Part shown: piece after piece, positions 18,875 through 28,545 of the stretch
How the letters are laid out: each line of letters starts with the position of its first letter
Position numbering within the stretch: the first letter of the stretch is position 1
Origin: Bradyrhizobium sp. Rc3b
Lineage (GTDB): Bacteria > Pseudomonadota > Alphaproteobacteria > Rhizobiales > Xanthobacteraceae
Assembly: GCF_900114915.1 (NCBI RefSeq)
Contig: NZ_FOUS01000004.1
Span: forward strand, 186,001 to 250,000
Length of the DNA stretch: 64,000 bases
Reading direction: 5' to 3'
The notes under the pieces: generated by a model
The model's input: the letters and a program-made list of their open reading frames with translations, nothing else
Database searches by the model: none
What the model was told of the DNA's origin: nothing
Translations under genes and position numbers: made by a program

Positions 18875-19894
18875 TCAGGAGTGTTTCGTGGGCTGCGGCG
18901 AAATACGCCGGCCTTGTGTTTTCCGCGCCGCGCGATAGCGCGCGGCCATCCCCTGCGTCAACTCCGCCATCTTGTCGCGGAGGTCGGCGGGCTCCAGCAC
19001 CTCGGCCTCGGGGCCGAGCCGCAACAATTCGGCCGCGGCGTGCCAGGACGTCTTGCCGACAGGCACGCGCGCAATGCGCCAGCCGTCTGCATCGCTGGCC
19101 TCTTCAATCTCCGTACGCGCCTTGATGTAGGGCTGGCTCAGCGCATCGAGCAGCTTGACGCCGAACGGCGACAACCGGACGATCGCGACATTGGGATGCA
19201 TCTCCGCCTCGAGACGCAGCGTCGCGGCCTGCCAATAGGCGGCAAGATCGAAATCGGCGGGACGATCGAAGCCGTCGTCGAGCGCCGTGCAGTCGAGCAC
19301 GCGCGCGACGCGATAGGTGCGCACGCTGGCGTCGACCTGGCCGGCGAAATACCAGCTCCCGCCCTTCAGCACGAGACCTAGCGGCGCGAGGCGACGCCGC
19401 TTTTCCGCGCGCCAGCTCTGGTAGCGGATCTTGATCAGTGTCCCGCGCAGCACGGCGCCGGCAATCGTGCGCAGATGCTTCGGCTCTTCGGCCTCGCCGA
19501 ACCAGCCCGGCGCGTCCAGATGAAAGCGTTCCTGCATCCGGCTGGCGTCCCGGCGCAGATGGACGGGCAGCGCCGCCATCAGCTTGTTCTGCGCGGCGAT
19601 CATTGCCGCATCCAGCCCGAGCGCCGCCGCCGGGCCCGGTAAGCCCGCCAGGAACAGCGTCTCGGCCTCGCTCTGCGACAGGCCGTTCAGCCGCACGCGA
19701 TAGCCGTCGAGCAGCCGATAGCCGCCCTCCGCGCCACGGTCGGCGTAAACCGGAACGCCTGATGCCGCGAGCGCGTCGATGTCGCGATAGATCGTGCGGA
19801 CCGAGACCTCGCAGGCCTCCGCGAGCTCGGGCGCGGTGACTTGCCCCCTGGCCTGGAGGGTGGTGAGGATCGACAACATTCGGCTCGCGCGCAT
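18875..19894 (-). CDS. WYL-domain helix-turn-helix regulator (YafY family)
   Basis: A 339-residue regulator. Residues 1-60 are an HTH_11-type winged helix (LTTLQARGQVTAPELAEACE then VSVRTIYRDI). A WYL domain follows at about 145-220 (IKIRYQSWRAEKRRRLAPLG then LVLKGGSWYFAGQ) and a WCX C-terminal extension at about 240-325. WYL domains sense small ligands or nucleic-acid fragments. The gene is divergent from a glutathione transferase, and a perfect 12+12 inverted repeat begins 12 bases before its start, so it probably represses both genes. A second WYL regulator/GST pair occurs at 26.4-28.3 kb. Confidence 0.9.
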   Translation of the reverse strand: MRASRMLSILTTLQARGQVTAPELAEACEVSVRTIYRDIDALAASGVPVYADRGAEGGYRLLDGYRVRLNGLSQSEAETLFLAGLPGPAAALGLDAAMIAAQNKLMAALPVHLRRDASRMQERFHLDAPGWFGEAEEPKHLRTIAGAVLRGTLIKIRYQSWRAEKRRRLAPLGLVLKGGSWYFAGQVDASVRTYRVARVLDCTALDDGFDRPADFDLAAYWQAATLRLEAEMHPNVAIVRLSPFGVKLLDALSQPYIKARTEIEEASDADGWRIARVPVGKTSWHAAAELLRLGPEAEVLEPADLRDKMAELTQGMAARYRAARKTQGRRISPQPTKHS

Positions 19895-19905
19895 GATTGC
19901 TTAAA

Positions 19906-19934
19906 CCATACCTGACACAGGATGTCAGGTATGG
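19906..19934. promoter_or_regulatory. 29-bp palindromic operator between WYL regulator and GST
   Basis: CCATACCTGACA, five bases (CAGGA), TGTCAGGTATGG: a perfect 12+12 inverted repeat. It fills the gap just upstream of the regulator start (19894) and lies 48 bases before the GST start (19982). The core TGACA...GGATGT also appears in the candidate site of the second WYL/GST pair. Confidence 0.75.
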
Positions 19935-19981
19935 CCCGCTACAAGCTGCGCCACCGCCCGCTGGCCCGATGGAGACCTGCC

Positions 19982-20626
19982 ATGACCGATCCGAACCGCA
20001 TCACGCTGTATTACTCGCCGCAAAGCCGTGCCACCGGCACGCGGGTGCTGCTGGAGGAGCTGGGTGCCCCCTACGATCTGCACGTCCTCAACATGAAGGC
20101 CGGCGAGCAGCGTCAACCCGCCTACCTCGCCATCAACCCGCTCGGCAAGGTCCCGGCGATCCGCCACGGCGATGCCCTGGTGACCGAGCAGGTCGCGGTC
20201 ACCATCTATCTCGCCGATCTCTTCCCGCAGGCCGGTTTGACGCCCGCGCTGAACGATCCGCTGCGCGGTCCTTATCTGCGCTGGATCGCCTATTACGGCT
20301 CATCCTTCGAGCCGGCGCTGATTGACAAGTTCATGCAGCGCGAGCCGGCGCCGATCACGCAGTCGCCCTATGCCGACTACGACACCATGTTAGGTGCGCT
20401 CGAAGCGCAACTGTCGAAGGGACCTTATCTGCTCGGCGAGCGGATGACGGCTGCCGACGTGTTGTGGGGCGTGGCGTTCAGCTGGACCATGATGTTCGGC
20501 ATCGTGCCGAAGAAGGACGTCTTCGTTCGCTATGCCGAGCGCATGACCGCGCGGCCTGCGTTCCAGCGCATCAATGCGGCGGACGACGAGATGGCGGCGC
20601 TGCATGCGAAGGCGGCGGGAGTGTAG
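19982..20626 (+). CDS. Glutathione S-transferase
   Basis: A 214-residue GST: N-terminal thioredoxin-like domain (TLYYSPQSRATGTRVLLEEL, residues 8-27, with the NPLGKVPAI cis-proline motif at about 59-67 and a following acidic/Gln stretch for the glutathione gamma-glutamyl group) and a helical C-terminal domain with LLGERMTAADVLWGV (the N-capping box). Cytosolic; conjugates or reduces electrophiles with glutathione. Divergent from a WYL regulator over a palindromic operator, so probably inducible by an electrophile or its product. The ATG at 19982 is chosen over one at 19922, which lies inside the operator. Confidence 0.9.
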   Translation: MTDPNRITLYYSPQSRATGTRVLLEELGAPYDLHVLNMKAGEQRQPAYLAINPLGKVPAIRHGDALVTEQVAVTIYLADLFPQAGLTPALNDPLRGPYLRWIAYYGSSFEPALIDKFMQREPAPITQSPYADYDTMLGALEAQLSKGPYLLGERMTAADVLWGVAFSWTMMFGIVPKKDVFVRYAERMTARPAFQRINAADDEMAALHAKAAGV

Positions 20627-20673
20627 GTCAGCCCCACACTCGGTGTCGTCCCGGGACGACAGCGAGAGAAATT

Positions 20674-21459
20674 TCAAAACCTCGGCGCTCGCTTCTCCGC
20701 GAACGCCTTGATGCCTTCCTTGATCTCGTCGCCGCGCATGCTGTCGCGGTGGCGCTGGTCGGCGGCGCGGTCATCGAGCTCGCCGCGGGCGAATTCGTTG
20801 ATCGCGCGCTTCATGCCGCGCATCGCCTGCGGCGCGTTGCCGGCGAGGGTTCCGGCGAGCTTGTCGACCTCCTCGTCGAGGAATTCCACCGGTACCATCG
20901 CAGTGAGATAGCCGATGCGCAGCATCTCCGGCGCGCTGATCTTCTGCGCCGTCAGGAACAGCTTCTTCGCGTTGTCGACGCCAAGCCGGGTGACGTAGCG
21001 TTTGATGCCGTTCCTGTAATAATGCAGCCCGAGCCGCGCCGCCGGCATGAACATCTCGGCGGTGTCGACGCCGATGCGGAAATCGCAGGCGAGCGCGAGG
21101 TCGGTCGAGCCGCCATAGACGCCGCCGTTGAGCCGGCAGATCGTCGGCACGCCCAGATCCTCCAGCCGGTTGACGACCACCTCAAATGCAGAGCCCGCGC
21201 TCTGCTGCTCGTTGGCGCTGACGGCGCGCTCGGCGACCGAATTGAGGTCATACCCGGCTGAGAAGGCGCGTCCGGTGCCGGTCAGCACCAGCACACGGAT
21301 GGCTGGATCGGCTTCGACCAGATCGAACAGTCTGACGAGCTCGTCGAGGTCCTCGGCCTGGAGCCGGTTGAGATGCTTCGGCCGATTGAGGCGGATGGTG
21401 GCGCGGGCGCCGTCGCGTTCGAGCACGGGGCCGGTGGCTGCGTCGGTGATGTCCGACAT
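20674..21459 (-). CDS. Enoyl-CoA hydratase/isomerase-family protein lacking the usual glutamates
   Basis: A 261-residue crotonase-fold protein. The CoA oxyanion-hole segments are present (FSAGYDLNS near residue 70 and GGVYGGSTDLALACD near 120). At the two catalytic glutamate positions it has STDLA instead of the usual CELA, and MPAARLG instead of QPEI/LG. So it is unlikely to be a standard enoyl-CoA hydratase; isomerase, thioesterase or hydrolase chemistry is possible. It lies just downstream of the potassium-channel gene on the same strand, with 11 bases between them, and may be co-transcribed. Confidence 0.82.
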   Translation of the reverse strand: MSDITDAATGPVLERDGARATIRLNRPKHLNRLQAEDLDELVRLFDLVEADPAIRVLVLTGTGRAFSAGYDLNSVAERAVSANEQQSAGSAFEVVVNRLEDLGVPTICRLNGGVYGGSTDLALACDFRIGVDTAEMFMPAARLGLHYYRNGIKRYVTRLGVDNAKKLFLTAQKISAPEMLRIGYLTAMVPVEFLDEEVDKLAGTLAGNAPQAMRGMKRAINEFARGELDDRAADQRHRDSMRGDEIKEGIKAFAEKRAPRF

Positions 21460-21470
21460 CTTGTCTCCTT

Positions 21471-22577
21471 TTATCTGTTTTCGAGTGCGCGTCGTTTCGC
21501 CTCGGCGTCAATGGTCTCGGCGAGATCTGGATGTCGTGCCATCAACACGCGGAAGTCGACGAGGTCGAGCACCAGAAGCCGCGACACTTTCGTGGTCGAG
21601 ACGTTGGCGCCGCGCATGTTGTTGCCGAGCAGCGCCATCTCGCCGAAGAAGGCGCCTTCGCCGAGCTGCACCTTCTTGCCGGGCAGCTCGACCTCGACCT
21701 CGCCGGCGGCGATGAAATACAGGCAGTCGCCCTGCGCGCCCTTGCGGATGATCATGGTGCGCGCCGGCAGCTCCATGGTCCGCAGCATGTGGGTGACGTC
21801 GGCAATCGCGGCGGGGCCGAGCGCCGCGAAGAACGGTACCTTGCTGACGGATTCCCAGGTCTTGAGGAAATTGTCGCGCCGCGTCTCGGCGGCAAATCCG
21901 GTCGCCAAAATACCGGTCCAGAGGCCGAACACGCCGAGGCCGGAGATCATCACCGCGGCCGCCACGATGCGGCCGAGCGGCGTAACCGGCACGACGTCGC
22001 CGTAGCCGGTGGTCGTGAGTGTGACGACGGCCCACCACAGCGCAGCGGGGACGCTGCCAAAAGTCTGCGGCTGCACGTCCCGCTCCAGGAAATATTCGGC
22101 GACGGAGGCGAGGAAGACCACCATCAGGAAGATCACGAGCACGCTGAGCAGCGGGCCCGATTCCAGCACCAGCACGCGGCGAAGCTGCCGAAGACCGGGG
22201 ATGCCGGGGACCACCTTCAACACCCAGAGCACGCTGAGCAGCCAGGCCGTCTTCGGCTCGGCACCGAGGAGAAGCGCGACCGGCACCGCCAGCGCCCCTA
22301 TCGCGTCGACCAGCCCGGCGGAGGAGGACATGTACAGCGAGAGCCGCCCCTGCTGCGTCATGTGGCGCAGCCGCACCAGCCATTCGAACACGAAATAGGC
22401 GAGGCAGGTCCAGAGCAGGGTGTTGATCCAGCCATGCGCCTCCTGGGCGCGCTTGTCCGACAGCAACACCATGCTGAGCACGCCGACGGTCACAGCCACA
22501 TAGGCCGCCTTGGTCATGTTGCGGCCGGCCGTGGCGGCCGCGAACTGGGCCAGAGCGGAAATCAGCGGCTTGGACAT
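21471..22577 (-). CDS. Cyclic-nucleotide-gated potassium channel, MloK1-like
   Basis: A 368-residue six-helix channel. S1-S4 cover about residues 22-140 with few S4 charges (LRQLRRVLVLE), the pore helix and selectivity filter TTTGYGD are at 188-194, S6 is at about 205-228, and a cyclic-nucleotide-binding domain fills 245-360 with the phosphate cassette GEGAFFGEMALLGNNMRGAN retaining its arginine. Length and domain order match MloK1 (MlotiK1) of Mesorhizobium loti, a cAMP-gated K+ channel. The start at 22577 gives a short cytoplasmic N-terminus as in MloK1; the open frame continues upstream without recognisable sequence. Confidence 0.9.
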   Translation of the reverse strand: MSKPLISALAQFAAATAGRNMTKAAYVAVTVGVLSMVLLSDKRAQEAHGWINTLLWTCLAYFVFEWLVRLRHMTQQGRLSLYMSSSAGLVDAIGALAVPVALLLGAEPKTAWLLSVLWVLKVVPGIPGLRQLRRVLVLESGPLLSVLVIFLMVVFLASVAEYFLERDVQPQTFGSVPAALWWAVVTLTTTGYGDVVPVTPLGRIVAAAVMISGLGVFGLWTGILATGFAAETRRDNFLKTWESVSKVPFFAALGPAAIADVTHMLRTMELPARTMIIRKGAQGDCLYFIAAGEVEVELPGKKVQLGEGAFFGEMALLGNNMRGANVSTTKVSRLLVLDLVDFRVLMARHPDLAETIDAEAKRRALENR

Positions 22578-22737
22578 GCGGGCAGGCGGCTCGGTGTTGA
22601 GACAAGTCTTCGGGTCCCGGCGGGACGCCGGCGCCAAAGTGCCCGCCTGGGCGAGGGCCGTCAACGACAGGCAGGCGGCGTGATCGGCGCTGCTGCGCCG
22701 GGCGGCCGGTCCGTGCCGCCATCGTTGGCGGAATGCC

Positions 22738-22956
22738 TTACCTGAAATGCGGCGGCTCGTCGTAGCCACGGCGGCTGCTGAAGAACAGCAGCACCATCAA
22801 CCCGACGCCGACAATGACGGAAAACCCTGCGCCCAGTGCCAGCGCCACATAGCCTTCCGTCGGGATCGGCTCACCTTCGACCGCCATTGCGGAATAGGCG
22901 AAGTAGCCGGCCGCCGCCAGCATTCCCAGAAGGAGGATGATGAGGAGTGCACGCAT
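22738..22956 (-). CDS. Small two-helix membrane protein
   Basis: A 72-residue protein with two hydrophobic helices (about residues 3-23 and 36-59) separated by a short acidic loop (AVEGEPIPTEG), and a charged C-terminus (SSRRGYDEPPHFR). The ATG at 22956 is preceded on the minus strand by a purine-rich stretch. No family recognised. It lies 160 bases upstream of the channel gene on the same strand and could be co-transcribed with it, but no link to channel function is shown. Confidence 0.65.
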   Translation of the reverse strand: MRALLIILLLGMLAAAGYFAYSAMAVEGEPIPTEGYVALALGAGFSVIVGVGLMVLLFFSSRRGYDEPPHFR

Positions 22957-23201
22957 GCTGCGGTCTCCGGTTGTAGTCGCGAACCAACGGTTGCAGGTGG
23001 GCTGGGTTCCAGACGGCCGGCCGTCACGATCTCCCTCTTGTGCCCCGGACGCAGCGCAGCACCGAGTGATGCGCTGCAGAGCCTGGGCCCATCCAGCAGC
23101 GCAAACTGCGGTTCCTGGGTCCCGGCTCGGCGCCGCAAACGCCTTCGGCATTGCGGCTTGTCCGGGACAAGAGATTGATGGGCGGCCCAATCGGGCGGCC
23201 G

Positions 23202-24647
23202 TCAGGCACTCTGGGCGGTCTTCACCACCACGACATTGCTGTCGTCGTGCTGGGCAGGGCCGCCGTCCTGCACCGTCTTCTCGGTTTCGCCGGCATGGCG
23301 TTTCAGATAGTCGCGACGCATGCCGATCTCGTCGCGGACGAATTCGTAGCCGAGCTTGAAGGTGTCGAGGCCGTCGGTGCTGATCGTGCCGTCTCTGAGC
23401 CCGATGACCGCCCCGCGTAAAATGCCCTCCAGTTCGTCCTGGAGACATTCGAGCTGATCCAGAGAGTGGGCGTGCTCGATCCGCTCGCCGATGTCGAGGA
23501 TGGCGGTGGAGAGCTCGCTGGCCTTCTCCGGCGCGATCCGGGTGATCTTGGCGTAGATCGCCGCGAAGATCGAGCCGATGACGCTGAGCGCGGCGGCGCC
23601 CAGATACATCAAGTCGCTGTACTTATCCATGAACGACTTGGTGTCGTCATTGATGTAATCGGCCGCCCCCTGGTGCGCCATCACAAAGGCGTCCTTCTCG
23701 ACGGAGGCCGGCTCGATCCTGCTGGCAAAGCCGTTGTCGAGGCCGAGCGCGGATTTGTTCTCGTAGATGGTGCGCGCCAGCTCGCCCGCCGTGGATGGCG
23801 ACATCCTGGATTGCGCGACCAGCAGCCATTCGAGCCCGATCGTGTCGAGATCGTCATCGGGGATTTGCGGCGACGTCGACAGCGTGCCCGCCGTCAGCGT
23901 CTCGCTGGAAATGCCCGGGAGCTTGCGCGCCAGCGCCTTGGCCTCGTCGATCGTGTTGAGCGTGAAGCCGCCACGCTTGGCGACCTGCTCATAGGCTTTG
24001 TCGCGCACTGCCCTGGAGGCATGAACGATGGCGATCACCGCGCCAAAGCCGTTTGACGGCGCGAACAGCTTGTCGAGCGTCGTGCCCTGCGGCGCCATCT
24101 GGATCTTGGCCGCGTCCGGACCGTCGGGGATATCGAGGATGCTGCGGACGAAGGCGAGGGAGGATTCGTTCTCGGCGAGAACGGCGACCTTCTTTTTCTT
24201 CAGCTCGGCGATCGACTTGATCTTCTTGTTGCCGGGACCGAGCAGAAGCACGAGATCGTGCTCGAGGATCGCGAGCGTGCGCGCCCGCAGTGGCACCTTG
24301 GCGTCGGTGCGCAGCACGGCCAGATCGGCCTGCTTGCGGTCGAACTGGGCGAGCGCCTTGGCATTGTCTGCGTTGTTGACGATCTTGATCCGGAAGCGCG
24401 AGGCGTTGGTCTTAAGCACGGCAGCAAGCTTGGCCGCGAACAGCGCCTCGTCGCTGTTGGGAGCGCCGACGGCAAAGGTCAGCGTCTCCGAATTGTGCAG
24501 CATGGCACGGCCGCCCCAGACGGTGGCGAGCGACAGCAGCAGGGTCAGCACGACGTAGAGGAAGACCTGCTGCTGATTGGTCTTGATCACCTTCGGGCGC
24601 CGCGGCGGCGGCTCGATCGGGGATGTGGTGGGGCCTTCAGTACTCAT
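23202..24647 (-). CDS. TAXI-family TRAP-type solute-binding protein, membrane-anchored
   Basis: A 481-residue protein. A cytoplasmic proline-rich tail (residues 1-28) and a membrane helix (about 29-48, VFLYVVLTLLLSLATVWGG) are followed by a TAXI/NMT1-like periplasmic binding domain (about 55-335: LTFAVGAPNSDEALFAAKLA, LAENESSLAFVRSILD), a second membrane helix (about 350-372) and a helical C-terminal tail of about 105 residues. TAXI proteins normally deliver substrate to a fused TRAP permease; none is in the window. The two membrane anchors and cytoplasmic tail suggest a sensor-like or tethered protein rather than a free binding protein. Confidence 0.85.
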   Translation of the reverse strand: MSTEGPTTSPIEPPPRRPKVIKTNQQQVFLYVVLTLLLSLATVWGGRAMLHNSETLTFAVGAPNSDEALFAAKLAAVLKTNASRFRIKIVNNADNAKALAQFDRKQADLAVLRTDAKVPLRARTLAILEHDLVLLLGPGNKKIKSIAELKKKKVAVLAENESSLAFVRSILDIPDGPDAAKIQMAPQGTTLDKLFAPSNGFGAVIAIVHASRAVRDKAYEQVAKRGGFTLNTIDEAKALARKLPGISSETLTAGTLSTSPQIPDDDLDTIGLEWLLVAQSRMSPSTAGELARTIYENKSALGLDNGFASRIEPASVEKDAFVMAHQGAADYINDDTKSFMDKYSDLMYLGAAALSVIGSIFAAIYAKITRIAPEKASELSTAILDIGERIEHAHSLDQLECLQDELEGILRGAVIGLRDGTISTDGLDTFKLGYEFVRDEIGMRRDYLKRHAGETEKTVQDGGPAQHDDSNVVVVKTAQSA

Positions 24648-25012
24648 GGCAGCACTCTGGCCTTATTCCCGGGTCACGGGCGGCTCGCGGACGTGATCGC
24701 GGCGGGCGCCCTGCAATTCCTAAACATCTGAAAAAAGAACGATATTCTGAACGGGCAATGATAACGCGCTGGGACCGGAAAGCAAATTTCGATCCGAGGG
24801 TAACCTTACTCGACGTGGCCGCGGCGAAAGGTCATCCTATCACCAGTTAGCCACACTTGGCGATTTTCCGGTTCCCCCCGGCTGCATTCCGCCGCGGGAG
24901 ATGTCATAAATCGAAGGTCCCGGCGATTTGACCGGTCCAAGAAGAAGTTGCGCTGAACGCTCCAATTTTTCTTGTCACCTCAATGAGGGCGTCGGCTTTG
25001 TCGTTTCCACCC
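24648..25012. other. Intergenic stretch without a recognisable gene
   Basis: About 365 bases between the divergent TAXI gene and the DUF3307 gene, and less GC-rich than its surroundings near 24725-24800. It presumably holds both promoters. I see no hairpin, tRNA or supported small gene; an open frame at 24623-24850 overlaps the TAXI start and looks random. Confidence 0.5.
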
Positions 25013-25399
25013 ATGTCATCGGCGGTTCCGGTCGAAGCGCTCATTGGCTGGATGCTGCTGCTCACCTTCAAGCACATCATCGCCGATTTCGTTCTTCAGA
25101 CCGCCTGGATGGCGCACGGCAAGGACCAGAAGCACGGCTGGGCCCTGCCGCTGCTGGTGCATTGCCTGATTCACCTTGCGGTTGCGCTACCGTTGATAAT
25201 GATCGTCGCGCCGAAATTCTGGTTCGTCGCCTTCATCGACTTCGTGATCCACATCACCATCGACCGCGCCAAGGGGTTCGTCTCGGCCAATTTCGGCGTC
25301 GACCTTGCACATCCCTGGTTCTGGACCCTGATCGGCGTCGACCAGGCGCTGCACCATCTCACCGGCTTCGGTCTGTCCATCTTCATGGCGGCGAACTGA
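25013..25399 (+). CDS. DUF3307 domain-containing membrane protein
   Basis: A 128-residue membrane protein with about four hydrophobic segments. The N-terminal motif LLLTFKHIIADFVLQTAWMA (about residues 13-32), with a conserved His and Asp in the first helix, together with HITIDRAKG in the middle and a C-terminal DQALHHLTGF, fits the DUF3307 family, whose function is unknown. The ATG at 25013 is used; an ATG at 24983 would add ten residues with no conserved features. Confidence 0.8.
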   Translation: MSSAVPVEALIGWMLLLTFKHIIADFVLQTAWMAHGKDQKHGWALPLLVHCLIHLAVALPLIMIVAPKFWFVAFIDFVIHITIDRAKGFVSANFGVDLAHPWFWTLIGVDQALHHLTGFGLSIFMAAN

Positions 25400-25444
25400 G
25401 GGCTGACGGCCCTCTGAGTGGGCAAGCCTTCATCGGCACTAAAG

Positions 25445-25532
25445 GTCGTCATGCCCGGGCTTGTCCCGGGCATCCACGTTCTTCCTGCGTCTTGGCCGTT
25501 CGTGGATGGCCGGGACAAGCCCGGCCATGACG
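25445..25532. repeat. Intergenic inverted-repeat element
   Basis: An 88-base element whose ends pair: GTCGTCATGCCCGGGCTTGT at the left matches the reverse complement of the right end (ACAAGCCCGGCCATGACG) with few mismatches, and there is an internal pair around CATCCACG/CGTGGATG. It is a long hairpin after the DUF3307 gene, of a style seen several times in this window. Confidence 0.7.
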
Positions 25533-25701
25533 CCGTGGAGGCGCTGCCGCCCGTTCTCCAGCCAGCGCGGTAATTCCCGGTCCCACCGCCACCTTCCGAT
25601 TCGCCGCGAGCGCGCAAGCACCCCGGGTGACTACCGGGCAGCGTGGTTAACCTTTCATTAGAGAATTGCGCTGCATCTTCCGCACACGAGGGAGAACTGC
25701 A

Positions 25702-26100
25702 ATGTTTTCAAGCCGCGATACTTTTGAAAGCGATTTCTGCCCGGTTCGCGACGAGCTCCTTGGCGAGATGTATCGCGCCAGCGAGAGTGGCCTGCCGCGG
25801 CTGGTTGAGAGTGTTTCCCCTGACGCGCGCGCCAGGCTGGCGCTGTTCTGCTATCGCCGCAGCCATCTGCACTCGCTGGCGGTCGCGATCGCAGCGAGCT
25901 GTAACGAGCGCGACCTGATCGAAAACGGCGGCCGCGTGGGCTCGACGCTCTATGCGCTGTCGCGCGAAGGCACGGCGAAATCCTCGCCGTCGCTGTCGGG
26001 CGGGCGCAAGCCGATCACGCTGTCGACCAAGCCGCTCTCGGTGCTCGCACCGCTGGACGACGAGATCGACGACGAAATCGGCGAAGCCGTTCCGGCCTAA
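25702..26100 (+). CDS. Conserved-looking hypothetical protein
   Basis: A 132-residue soluble protein with GGGAGAA just before the ATG at 25702. The first two thirds look helical and globular (FESDFCPVRDELLGEMYRAS, ARLALFCYRRSHLHSLAVAI); the last third is Ser/Pro-rich and ends in an acidic tail (LDDEIDDEIGEAVPA). I do not recognise the family. Codon use matches the neighbours. Its stop overlaps the convergent cysteine-cluster gene by four bases, which supports both being real. Confidence 0.65.
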   Translation: MFSSRDTFESDFCPVRDELLGEMYRASESGLPRLVESVSPDARARLALFCYRRSHLHSLAVAIAASCNERDLIENGGRVGSTLYALSREGTAKSSPSLSGGRKPITLSTKPLSVLAPLDDEIDDEIGEAVPA

Positions 26101-26420
26101 CTAGCTTCGATAGCCGGAAGCCCGAACTTCCGCCGCGCCATCGCGCATTCGGCGTCGCCCGGCATGCAGGTGCGACACACCTCCGGCCGTACCGCATAGA
26201 TGCCGCACGCGGTCGCTCTTCCAATATCCCCCTGCAAGGCTGAGCAGCGGTCGCCCTCGCAACGCATGCCGGATTGGCGGTCGTTGACCAGCGCCTCCGG
26301 AATGGCGGCAAGCTCTTCGTCGCTCTCGACCGAGAAGCGCGGCCAGTTGGCCGAATAGCCGCAGCAGGCGCCGCAACTCTGGCAACAGCTCGACAGATCG
26401 ACGGGGGAGCTCTCTTCCAT
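26097..26420 (-). CDS. YkgJ-family cysteine cluster protein
   Basis: A 107-residue protein with the YkgJ/CxxCxxCC pattern: CCQSCGACCGY near residue 14, C-x5-C in MRCEGDRC, and CGIYAVRPEVCRTC near 70-85, plus a final Cys in GDAEC. The eight or more cysteines suggest a bound Zn or Fe-S cluster. Function unknown. The ATG at 26420 is chosen; a TTG at 26429 would add MRT. It is followed on its 5' side by a WYL regulator only 18 bases away on the same strand, so it may be the downstream partner of that regulator. Confidence 0.85.
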   Translation of the reverse strand: MEESSPVDLSSCCQSCGACCGYSANWPRFSVESDEELAAIPEALVNDRQSGMRCEGDRCSALQGDIGRATACGIYAVRPEVCRTCMPGDAECAMARRKFGLPAIEAS

Positions 26421-26438
26421 CGTCCTCAAATGTCCTTG

Positions 26439-27137
26439 TCAGGTGTCTTTGGGCGGGCCCCAGACCAGGCTCTGCCGCCATCTCGCGCGCAGCACGTCGC
26501 GCCGCTCAGGATATCTCTCGTCGAGATAGTTGGCATCGACCACGCGGTCGGTGCGGAAGCTGCGGAAGTCGCCGCGTAGCTCGCACCAGGCTGCCAGCAG
26601 GCGCACGGCTTCGAGATAGCCGACCGAGATCGGCCAGATCATGCGCTCGCTGGCGCGGCCCTGCTCGTCGCGATAGCGCAGCATGATCTTCTTGCCTTCA
26701 TGGATCTGGGTGCGCGTGCGCACCATGTCCAGGCGGTCCGGCTCCCTGTTCCAGCTCGGCCGTGCCCGGCTCGCGGGCTCCAGCACGAACGGACGCAGCC
26801 GCTCGGGCACGGTGTCCGCGATCTTGGCCATCAGATCCTCGGCCGCGCGCGCCAGTGCCGAATCGGCATGGCCGGCGACCCACTGTGCGCCCAGCACCGC
26901 CGCCTCGATCTCGTCGGGCGTCAGCATCAGCGGCGGAAGATCAAATCCCTTTTCCAGGATGTAGCCCATGCCGGCTTCACCGCGGATCGGCACGCGCTGG
27001 CCGATCAGCGTTGCGATGTCGCGATAGATCGTGCGCTTCGAGGTCTCGAGCTCGGCCGCGATGGCGTCCGCCGTCAGCGGCTTACGCGTGCGCCTCAGCA
27101 CCTGGATGATTTGAAACAGCCGGTCGGCGCGTCTCAT
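26439..27137 (-). CDS. WYL-domain helix-turn-helix regulator (YafY family), second copy
   Basis: A 232-residue regulator: HTH_11 winged helix (residues 1-60, LFQIIQVLRRTRKPLTADAI and SKRTIYRDIATL) and a WYL domain (about 135-200, HEGKKIMLRYRDEQGRASER, MIWPISVGYLEAVRLLAAWC). It is shorter than the WYL regulator at 18.9 kb because it lacks the C-terminal WCX extension. A dyad at 27180-27203 lies 43 bases before its start, and a longer palindrome at 27474-27501 shares its half-site; a glutathione transferase follows at 27549. Probably a local repressor of that GST. Confidence 0.9.
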   Translation of the reverse strand: MRRADRLFQIIQVLRRTRKPLTADAIAAELETSKRTIYRDIATLIGQRVPIRGEAGMGYILEKGFDLPPLMLTPDEIEAAVLGAQWVAGHADSALARAAEDLMAKIADTVPERLRPFVLEPASRARPSWNREPDRLDMVRTRTQIHEGKKIMLRYRDEQGRASERMIWPISVGYLEAVRLLAAWCELRGDFRSFRTDRVVDANYLDERYPERRDVLRARWRQSLVWGPPKDT

Positions 27138-27179
27138 GACGGGTCTCTTGTTGTGGTCTTTTCAGAAAGCGGCGCGCGG

Positions 27180-27203
27180 CTGCTGACAGGATGTTGGCAG
27201 CAG
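27180..27203. promoter_or_regulatory. Imperfect palindromic operator before the second WYL regulator
   Basis: CTGCTGACA-N5-TTGGCAGCAG, counted from 27180; the outer six bases pair perfectly and the inner part less well. It shares TGACA...GGATGT with the operator of the first WYL/GST pair (19906-19934), and the half-site TGGCAGCAG with the palindrome at 27474-27501. Confidence 0.6.
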
Positions 27204-27249
27204 GGGGGTTCTATACCGGGACAACACATCGACTGAAGAGGATTTGTCC

Positions 27250-27510
27250 ATGATCATTCCGACCCATTTCGGCCCGGCTATTCCGATGTTGCGGGCGCAG
27301 GCGTGGTCCGCGTCGGCGTTCGGCCGCCTCGTTTCGCTCGATCTCATGGCCGTCGACCTCCGGTTTGCCCTCGCAAGCGTGGTGGCACGCCCGCTGATCC
27401 AGGCCGCGGACGCGCTGGTCCGCCATGTGATGGGCCGTGCCTGGCGGGGGGCCCGTTTCGCAGAAGATATCACGGCTGCTGCCACCATGGTGGCAGCAGC
27501 CCGGCACTAG
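27250..27510 (+). CDS. Small hypothetical protein upstream of the GST gene
   Basis: An 86-residue frame from ATG 27250 (a TTG at 27244 is also in frame). It encodes MIIPTHFGPAIPMLRAQAWS followed by an Ala/Val-rich amphipathic region and a C-terminal TAAATMVAAARH. No family recognised. It is divergent from the WYL regulator and ends 38 bases before the GST gene, so it could be the first gene of the regulated transcript. Its last codons coincide with a perfect 28-bp palindrome, which may mean the frame there is incidental. Confidence 0.45.
   Translation: MIIPTHFGPAIPMLRAQAWSASAFGRLVSLDLMAVDLRFALASVVARPLIQAADALVRHVMGRAWRGARFAEDITAAATMVAAARH
27474..27501. promoter_or_regulatory. Perfect 28-bp palindrome upstream of the GST gene
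   Basis: GGCTGCTGCCACCA followed directly by its reverse complement, 48 bases before the GST start. It shares the half-site TGGCAGCAG with the dyad at 27180-27203 near the WYL regulator start, so it may be a second binding site of that regulator. A hairpin in the mRNA is an alternative. Confidence 0.6.
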
Positions 27511-27548
27511 GTTCCGTCAACTTTTTCGGTGGTTCAGGAGAAGCTTTC

Positions 27549-28277
27549 ATGATCACGCTCTACGGATTTGGCACCGGCTTCGGCCTGCCGGAAATCAGCC
27601 CCTTCGTCACCAAGACGGAAGTGCAGCTCAAGATGGCGGGACTGCCCTACCGGAAGGAGCGGGCAATGCCGCCGGCCTCGCCCAAGGGCCAGCTGCCCTT
27701 CATTGACGATGGCGGCGAGGCGGTGGCCGATTCCACCTTCATTCGCGCCCATATCGAGCGCCGATACGGCTTTGATTTCGATGCCGGGCTGTCGCTGACC
27801 GACCGCGCGCAGGCCTGGGCGTTCGAACGGATGATCGAGCACCACATCTACTGGGGGCTGGTTGGCGCGCGCTGGGTCGATCCCGTCAATTTCGCCAAGG
27901 GGCCTGCGCATTTCTTCGACGGCGCGCCGGAGCACAACCGCGAGAAGCTGCGCGAGGACGCGCAATTCCGCGTCGCCGAGAACTATCTGCTCTCGGGCCT
28001 CGGCCGCCATGGTCCCGATGACGATGTCGAGCTCGCCGTGCGCTCGCTGTTCGCGCTCTCGGTGCAGCTCGGCGACAAGTCCTATCTGATGGGCAAAAAG
28101 CCCTGCGGCGTCGATGCCACCGCCTTCGGGATGCTCGCCGGCATTCTCTCGCCGTTCTTCGAATCGGCCCTGCGCGAGCGCGCCGAGGGCTTTCCGAACC
28201 TCACCGCCTATGTCGATCGCATGATGGACAATTACTATCCGGAGTTCGCCTGGACCCCGCTGCGGCAGGCGGCTTAG
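27549..28277 (+). CDS. Glutathione S-transferase family protein (metaxin/Fax-like N-terminus)
   Basis: A 242-residue protein. The N-terminus (ITLYGFGTGFGLPEISPFVT, then KTEVQLKMAGLPYRKE) is the thioredoxin-like domain variant of metaxin/Fax-type GSTs, with SPFV in place of a SPxC motif, followed by SPKGQLPFI (cis-Pro). The C-terminal helical domain contains YLMGKKPCGVDATAFGMLAG, the N-capping Ser/Asp equivalent, and ends with DRMMDNYYPEFAW. Cytosolic; substrate unknown. The start has AGGAG about eight bases upstream. Probably controlled by the WYL regulator at 26.4-27.1 kb through the palindromes between them. Confidence 0.88.
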   Translation: MITLYGFGTGFGLPEISPFVTKTEVQLKMAGLPYRKERAMPPASPKGQLPFIDDGGEAVADSTFIRAHIERRYGFDFDAGLSLTDRAQAWAFERMIEHHIYWGLVGARWVDPVNFAKGPAHFFDGAPEHNREKLREDAQFRVAENYLLSGLGRHGPDDDVELAVRSLFALSVQLGDKSYLMGKKPCGVDATAFGMLAGILSPFFESALRERAEGFPNLTAYVDRMMDNYYPEFAWTPLRQAA

Positions 28278-28320
28278 GGCCTGATGTGATGAATTTCCTC
28301 TCGTGCTCCGAAGGAGGTGC

Positions 28321-28472
28321 GTTCCCTCCCCCCTTGTGGGGGAGGGTTAGGGAGAGGGGTAGCCCAGCAAAAGGTGCTGCTTGGTGATGGTGCATGGAGG
28401 CCGGCGCACGACGGAAGGAATCCCCGTGTGGCACCCCCCTCCCTGCCCCTCCCCCACAAGGGGGGAGGGAAC
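28321..28472. repeat. Inverted-repeat element with perfect 26-base arms
   Basis: The arm at 28321-28346 (starts GTTCCCTCCC) is the exact reverse complement of 28447-28472, with about 100 bases between. Each arm can itself fold (CCCCTTGTGGGG). A related element with the same left arm sequence is at 58133-58242. No open frame or target duplication is evident. Confidence 0.8.
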
Positions 28473-28545
28473 GGTGAGAGCGGTGTTGTTGGCCTGCGTA
28501 CGATTTGATCTCCCGCTCGCGGCACTCGATCTCAAACGCCCAAAC

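Follow-up and report, generated by a model that had tools for sequence, protein, structure and literature searches.

Candidate WYL-family activators of glutathione-linked detoxification, and their operators, in a Bradyrhizobium genome

The stretch of DNA analyzed here, 64,000 nucleotides from Bradyrhizobium sp. Rc3b (contig NZ_FOUS01000004.1, positions 186,001 to 250,000; hereafter, the window), encodes two regulators of the WYL family, WYL1 and WYL2, each divergent from a gene for a glutathione transferase (GST) and separated from it by a dyad-symmetric element. Our reading, to which we assign a probability of about 0.7, is that WYL1 and WYL2 are activators of glutathione-linked detoxification, of the kind exemplified by DriD and PafBC, each bound to its own dyad. 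That each protein binds its own dyad is, judging from the sequence, highly probable; that the outcome is activation, and not repression, is likely, with less assurance. Specifically, a WYL protein, presumably a homodimer, would contact two inverted TGTCA half-sites through a recognition helix of the form R-[TS]-x-x-R-D, with specificity set by the outer arms and by a spacer of 5 or 6 bp. Once on its operator, the protein would retain RNA polymerase at promoters with no -35 box of their own. WYL1 would be a switch for a single target, GST1. WYL2 would switch on a small gene and GST2 from two sites, along with other, scattered genes. In this genome these would be one akin to glutathione-dependent formaldehyde-activating enzymes (GFA) and, from a site with one mismatch, one akin to 4HBT thioesterases; in some relatives, EamA and glyoxalase-like genes. 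Each regulator may also control its own gene, and its WYL domain would sense either a nucleic acid or damage by electrophiles.

Operators of the two WYL-GST pairs

WYL1 (18875-19894, minus strand; 339 amino acids) consists of HTH_11, WYL and WCX domains and has the recognition helix EVSVRTIYRD; WYL2 (26439-27137, minus strand; 232 amino acids) consists of HTH_11 and WYL domains, with the helix ETSKRTIYRD. The HTH_11 and WYL domains score above the curated cut-offs in both proteins (57.3 and 53.7 bits in WYL1, 59.2 and 35.1 bits in WYL2). The WCX domain scores 53 bits in WYL1 and has no match in WYL2; going by length alone, many of the family members surveyed below are as short as WYL2. The two proteins are 29% identical, and their genes are approximately 7 kb apart in the window; a distance of 5-10 kb separates them in five of six relatives examined from the same genus. 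The host genome (8.4 Mb, G000 in our numbering, with both loci on contig C33) yields three matches in a search with PF13280, namely WYL1, WYL2 and a third (L003, C29:45422-45622) inside a 472-residue frame, whose start is by eye not HTH_11-like and which is not matched by the WYL profile built here; by eye, we take it to resemble an AbiEii-type or nucleotidyltransferase-type toxin protein. Thus, both HTH_11-type WYL genes found in the genome face GSTs.

The first operator, op1 (19906-19934; no strand is assigned to any of the operators), is a perfect 29-bp dyad, CCATACCTGACA-N5-TGTCAGGTATGG, i.e., two arms of 12 bp with 5 nucleotides between them. Its conservation was assessed in the best 80 of 124 relatives, in a single scan; the named loci closest to WYL1 are those of Bradyrhizobium. 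In 79 of these 80 loci, no more than 60 bp separate WYL1 from the core, TGACA-N5-TGTCA, and the extended form, ATACC-core-GGTAT, is found in 76. The second operator, op2a (27180-27203), is a 24-bp dyad, CTGCTGACA-N6-TGGCAGCAG, whose 9-bp arms contain one mismatch and are 6 nucleotides apart. In the 30 best WYL2 loci, drawn from 149 genomes of the bacterial family (WYL2 has matches at E<=0.001 in 59 of these, not all of them close), the pattern TGCTGMCA-N6-TGKCAGCA (hereafter, the op2 pattern) is exact in 24, carries one mismatch in 3 and is absent from 3. Both dyads had been located in a preliminary description of this DNA made from its letters alone, and this conservation, together with shuffled sequences, rules out that they are chance dyads.

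That description had missed a third operator, which surpasses in symmetry all other WYL2-type sites seen in the window. It is located at the 3' end of a small frame, 49 bp before GST2 (op2b, 27476-27499), within a 28-bp perfect palindrome (27474-27501), and matches the op2 pattern at 27477-27498. It is retained in the genus even though the surrounding frame diverges; 13 of the 30 WYL2 loci have two op2-type sites, one of these loci with a mismatch. The small frame itself (27250-27510, plus strand; 86 amino acids), between op2a and GST2, has no match in Pfam or NCBIfam; frames of 65-92 residues with a DLRWA-like stretch occupy the same position in several relatives. Elsewhere, the partners of two distant WYL genes (L121, L161) are small DUF1127 proteins.

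The operators had been described as sharing a core, TGACA...GGATGT. The TGACA/TGTCA pair of half-sites is indeed common to both; the GGATGT element is coincidental. It is out of register, in that its TGT opens the right half-site of op1 and the entire hexamer is the spacer of op2a, and it is not conserved, being the spacer in just 4 of 27 op2a orthologues. A regulon shared by WYL1 and WYL2 in this genome was also rejected, as op1 has no second site in the 8.4 Mb even when three mismatches are allowed. Because op1 and op2a differ in spacer (5 versus 6) and in their outer arms, cross-binding would not be expected.

The genes opposite the regulators were likewise correctly placed and typed in the preliminary description. 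GST1 (19982-20626, plus strand, with an alternative in-frame start at 19922) is a canonical GST_N/GST_C transferase; GST2 (27549-28277, plus strand) is of the GST_N_4/GST_C_6 type, and in NCBIfam matches only the isoprene-epoxide GST model, whose cut-off of 300 bits it does not reach (159 bits). The two give no meaningful alignment (E 0.037), and hence are rightly considered different types. The pairing of WYL and GST genes, on whose recurrence that description had staked its proposal, does recur: GST1 adjoins WYL1 in 80 of 80 loci, with 82-97% identity, and GST2 is present at 23 of the 30 WYL2 loci. For five of the seven without GST2 the divergent frame was assigned by eye from peptide starts: L107-L109 have a GFA-like frame there, L110 and L111 a glyoxalase-like one.

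A half-site shared across the family and a recurrent promoter register

To place these operators in the context of the protein family, regions upstream of WYL genes were collected from a draw of 142 genomes of the class and another of 150 genomes of the phylum, a subset of the matches being fetched. Loci without a profile match, with an HTH domain unaligned at the model start, or with a short upstream region were dropped (7 of 60 in the class set, L115-L174; 23 of 88 in the phylum set, L204-L291), which left 53 and 65, scanned over 130 and 150 bp, respectively. The motif TGMCA-N5/6-TGKCA is found in 28 of the 53 class loci, compared with a mean of 0.1 and a maximum of 2 in 200 dinucleotide shuffles; control windows elsewhere in the same loci contain it in 5 of 1421 cases. 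When spacers of 0-12 were tried in the class set, no motif was found at 0-4 or 7-12. In the phylum set, 15 of 65 loci carry the motif. In the two sets together, it accompanies 43 of the 87 WYL genes whose recognition helix is of the R[TS]xxRD form, but none of the 31 whose helix is different (Fisher p 5e-8). On this evidence we take the TGACA/TGTCA half-site to be a trait of HTH_11-type WYL regulators with this recognition helix.

A divergent frame was obtained for 40 of the 43 motif-bearing WYL genes, to which this count is limited; the frames were picked by length and by GC content at third codon positions, and some may be wrong. Fifteen of these partners have GST domains, 12 of them GST_N_4; the remainder comprises 3 glyoxalases, 3 LysE proteins, 9 members of other families and 10 proteins without a match. 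The helix may also relate to the letters of the half-site. That is, in a sample that includes the family loci L175-L203, all eight motif-bearing proteins with an LG..RTL helix have at least one TGCCA/TGGCA half-site, and 16 of 28 other proteins, with I at that place and no such G, have TGACA-N6-TGTCA. We regard this pairing as a lead, not as a test.

Many of the operators also stand in a fixed relation to what follows them. Reading outward from the operator towards the partner gene, TA occurs at positions 13-14 past the near half-site of op1 (19940-19941), in the putative -10 element of the GST1 promoter, GCTACAAG (19938-19945, plus strand), and again past op2a (27212-27213), in the putative -10 element TCTATACC (27210-27217, plus strand), and past op2b (27508-27509). 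The A at position 14 is invariant in 79 of 79 op1 and 27 of 27 op2 orthologues. Among 43 diverse operators, TA is found at 13-14 in 23, versus a background of 1.7% at positions beyond (binomial p 1e-29). If this TA is taken to be -12/-11, which is an assumption, the near half-site spans approximately -29 to -25, and a 6-nucleotide spacer falls exactly on -35 to -30. On average, these N6 spacers agree with TTGACA in 0.46 of its 6 letters, against the 1.5 expected from uniform letters. Since the TA is exactly 13-14 bases past the near half-site, the spacer would stand in for the -35 box; it is this combination, i.e., a half-site at -29 to -25, a spacer in the place of -35 and a -10 element at fixed distance, that leads us to read WYL1 and WYL2 as activators.

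WYL2-type sites in the genome, the genus and the family

The op2 pattern occurs four times in the host genome: at op2a, at op2b, before the GFA gene (C22, L294; PF04828) and before uvrB (C38, L295). The reversed pattern has no match in this genome. With one mismatch allowed, two further sites appear, one before the 4HBT thioesterase-like gene (C39, L381) and one at C22:603540; the latter has letters similar to those of the EamA site in relatives, but we rejected it because it is out of register on both sides. Matches with three mismatches were discarded (reversed control, 35 versus 27). In register are op1, op2a, op2b and the GFA and thioesterase sites; the uvrB site is not.

All of the 60 genomes sampled from the genus, including that of the host, carry between 1 and 7 WYL2-type sites, and none carries the reversed pattern. 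Contexts were taken from the matches listed, namely the sites away from WYL2 in 15 genomes and the paired site of one further genome, or 40 regions in total. uvrB and GFA targets were identified by tblastn; for each other type one representative was scanned in Pfam and the remainder was assigned by eye from peptide starts. The targets are uvrB (11), 4HBT thioesterase (11), GFA (9), glyoxalase-like (3), EamA (3), SDR (1), TauE-like (1) and WYL2-GST2 itself (1). The register is kept at distant sites of very different kinds: 4HBT 11/11, GFA 9/9, EamA 3/3, VOC 2/3 and SDR 1/1. The glyoxalase-like genes with WYL2-type sites (L342, L352, L363) resemble, by eye, those that face WYL2 orthologues in L110 and L111; this partner thus appears to be in cis in one genus and a target in trans in another.

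Site and regulator also occur together in the 149 genomes of the family, a co-occurrence to which shared ancestry contributes. The site is present in 25 of the 28 genomes whose WYL2 is at least 58% identical; one of them, G045, has an exact match away from its WYL2, at which the site itself has one mismatch. Among the 121 other genomes the site is found only in G021, where it precedes that genome's partial WYL2-like gene by approximately 30 bp, and it is absent from all 90 genomes in which WYL2 has no match.

The uvrB site (L295:3016-3039, i.e., C38:67815-67838) requires separate consideration. It is located 60 bp before the uvrB start, shortly past the stop of a 92-residue open run, and its core letters are identical in 10 of 11 listed relatives. 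It conforms to the WYL2 pattern, and is nevertheless out of promoter register in 11 of 11 cases; because the register fails, it is only possibly an ordinary target, and WYL2 might contact it in a different way, or the dyad might be an element of another kind. One such possibility, for which the odds seem to us somewhat worse than even, is that some WYL2-type dyads, chiefly those of uvrB, are RNA hairpins or other elements and not WYL2 sites. Besides the missing register, this would be in line with CCTGCTGTCAGCAGG, which is found inside some uvrB sites and can self-fold (by eye, not computed). Conversely, the op2 pattern is complete at the uvrB site of all 11 relatives listed, once by way of changed letters (L355), although these were found through the pattern, so that relatives lacking it are invisible; moreover, the 90 family genomes in which WYL2 has no match yielded no instance of the pattern.

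Also seen in the window are inverted GC-rich intergenic repeats at 28310-28480 and 25446-25530 (CTCCCCCTTGTGGGGGAGGG-like and GCCCGGGCTTGTCCCGGGC-like, respectively), which by eye are like dispersed palindromic elements.

Comparison with known WYL systems

The geometry of the WYL1 and WYL2 sites is nearly that of the WYL activators DriD and PafBC, in which the site stands where a -35 box would be and keeps a set spacing to -10. DriD, a homodimeric wHTH-WYL activator from Caulobacter, is described as recognizing ATACGAC-N7-GTCGTAT, in sites that overlap, and are centred on, poor -35 boxes and keep a constant distance to -10 (PMC12340889); its GAC-N7-GTC register is that of op1. Its outer arms, ATAC and GTAT, differ from those of op1 in that they directly abut GAC and GTC, and its known targets are DNA-damage genes. 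PafBC, a mycobacterial heterodimer, has the consensus tTGTCRgtg-8nt-TannnT (PMC5656591), that is, a TGTCRg half-site at a fixed distance from TannnT, and the -35 box is replaced through sigma adaptation (PMC5656591, PMC11804915). In contrast to op1 and op2a, the PafBC site is reported to be non-palindromic (PMC6789036), and its TA is one base nearer, at 12-13. SiwR, a mycobacterial activator of DinB/YfiT-like genes, is encoded beside members of a superfamily to which thiol S-transferases also belong, acts on an imperfect palindrome that spans -10 to -35, and requires R38 and R42 in its HTH domain; that palindrome is 19 bp long, compared here by description and not by letters, and its targets and phylum are different (PMC10693628).

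The proteins themselves bear weaker resemblances. By sequence, WYL1 weakly matches PafC (E 0.0016) and, in the WYL-WCX part only, the C-terminal DriD chain 7tzv (PMC12340889), at E 0.005, as well as 7u02 (E 0.005, again WYL-WCX only), which we assume to be DriD like 7tzv. WYL2 also weakly matches PafC (E 8e-5) and has no match to a DriD chain at E<=0.01. The ligand of PafBC is single-stranded DNA, bound by the arginine pair R201/R204 in the WYL domain of PafC, according to PMC11804915. The motif R-x-[YF]-R-x-x-R, which aligns with PafC in both WYL1 and WYL2 and reads R-x-Y-R-x-x-R in the WYL domain of WYL1, is kept in 80 of 80 WYL1 and 28 of 28 WYL2 orthologues (in two of the latter via a shifted match, RDFRSFR and RDFRTFR). 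These arginines allow single-stranded DNA as the signal, without showing that it is.

Several observations weigh against activation through a shared register. Geometry alone does not prove activation, because there is a WYL repressor, BrxR, whose sites are likewise inverted repeats with halves 5 bp apart (PMC9122601). TA is missing from exactly 13-14 in 20 of the 43 diverse operators, and its share is low for N5 spacers (4 of 15, versus 19 of 28 for N6); it is also found at 13-14 on the WYL side of 9 of the 43, so the partner side is not alone in showing the register. Besides uvrB, the TauE-like site (1/1) and one of the three glyoxalase-like sites are out of register. Of the 87 helix-bearing WYL genes, 44 lack the motif in the scanned window, and in the phylum set its letters also occur once each at spacers of 10 and 12. 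Finally, all counts across relatives are uncorrected for kinship.

WYL1 and WYL2 might instead be repressors, whose operators, over the -35 region, block RNA polymerase at the GSTs and at their own start until an electrophile or nucleotide ligand releases them. At 27 of the 43 loci surveyed, just 10-26 bp separate the end of the operator from the start codon of the WYL gene, as would fit autorepression, and BrxR proteins are reported to repress from inverted repeats (PMC9122601). Yet promoters whose spacers match TTGACA so poorly would be weak unaided, and a fixed distance to -10 across unlike targets is something that an activator needs and a repressor does not. BrxR, in addition, shares the HTH-WYL-WCX architecture and the 5-bp spacer (PMC9122601, PMC9122589), but has SRQQ in its recognition helix, the motif being absent from all 31 surveyed WYL genes with another helix, and is described as repressing phage-defence genes. 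Repression thus seems to us unlikely. Very improbable is that a single module was copied or reused locally, with regulator and operator duplicated and a different GST captured: the only two HTH_11-type WYL genes found in the genome are indeed close together, as in most relatives examined, but the proteins are just 29% identical, WCX is in one only, the GST types are unrelated, spacer and arms differ, and the half-site is common across the family. The preliminary description was correct in that the operators are related and not the product of simple duplication; its idea of a regulatory module reused between the loci is not supported.

A wider extension of the activator reading is in our view doubtful. 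WYL2 might head an SOS-independent response to genotoxic electrophiles, in which single-stranded DNA or a damage product bound to the WYL domain would turn on GST2, GFA, thioesterase and glyoxalase-like genes, together with uvrB, i.e., nucleotide excision repair; and HTH_11-type WYL regulators of Pseudomonadota might obey one operator-promoter code (TGMCA-N5/6-TGKCA, 12 nucleotides, TA), whose half-site would carry A/T or C/G depending on residues of the helix (proteins with LG..RTLYRD going with TGCCA/TGGCA).

Among the open-licence papers listed in our literature searches, we recognized none that describes this operator or regulon. WYL proteins number more than 15,000 (PMC12340889), and few activators among them are described, namely PafBC, SiwR and DriD (PMC11804915). 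If the code holds, the targets of many WYL proteins, and the likely sign of their regulation, would be readable from sequence, and the family would be tied to glutathione-linked detoxification, besides DNA damage and phage defence.

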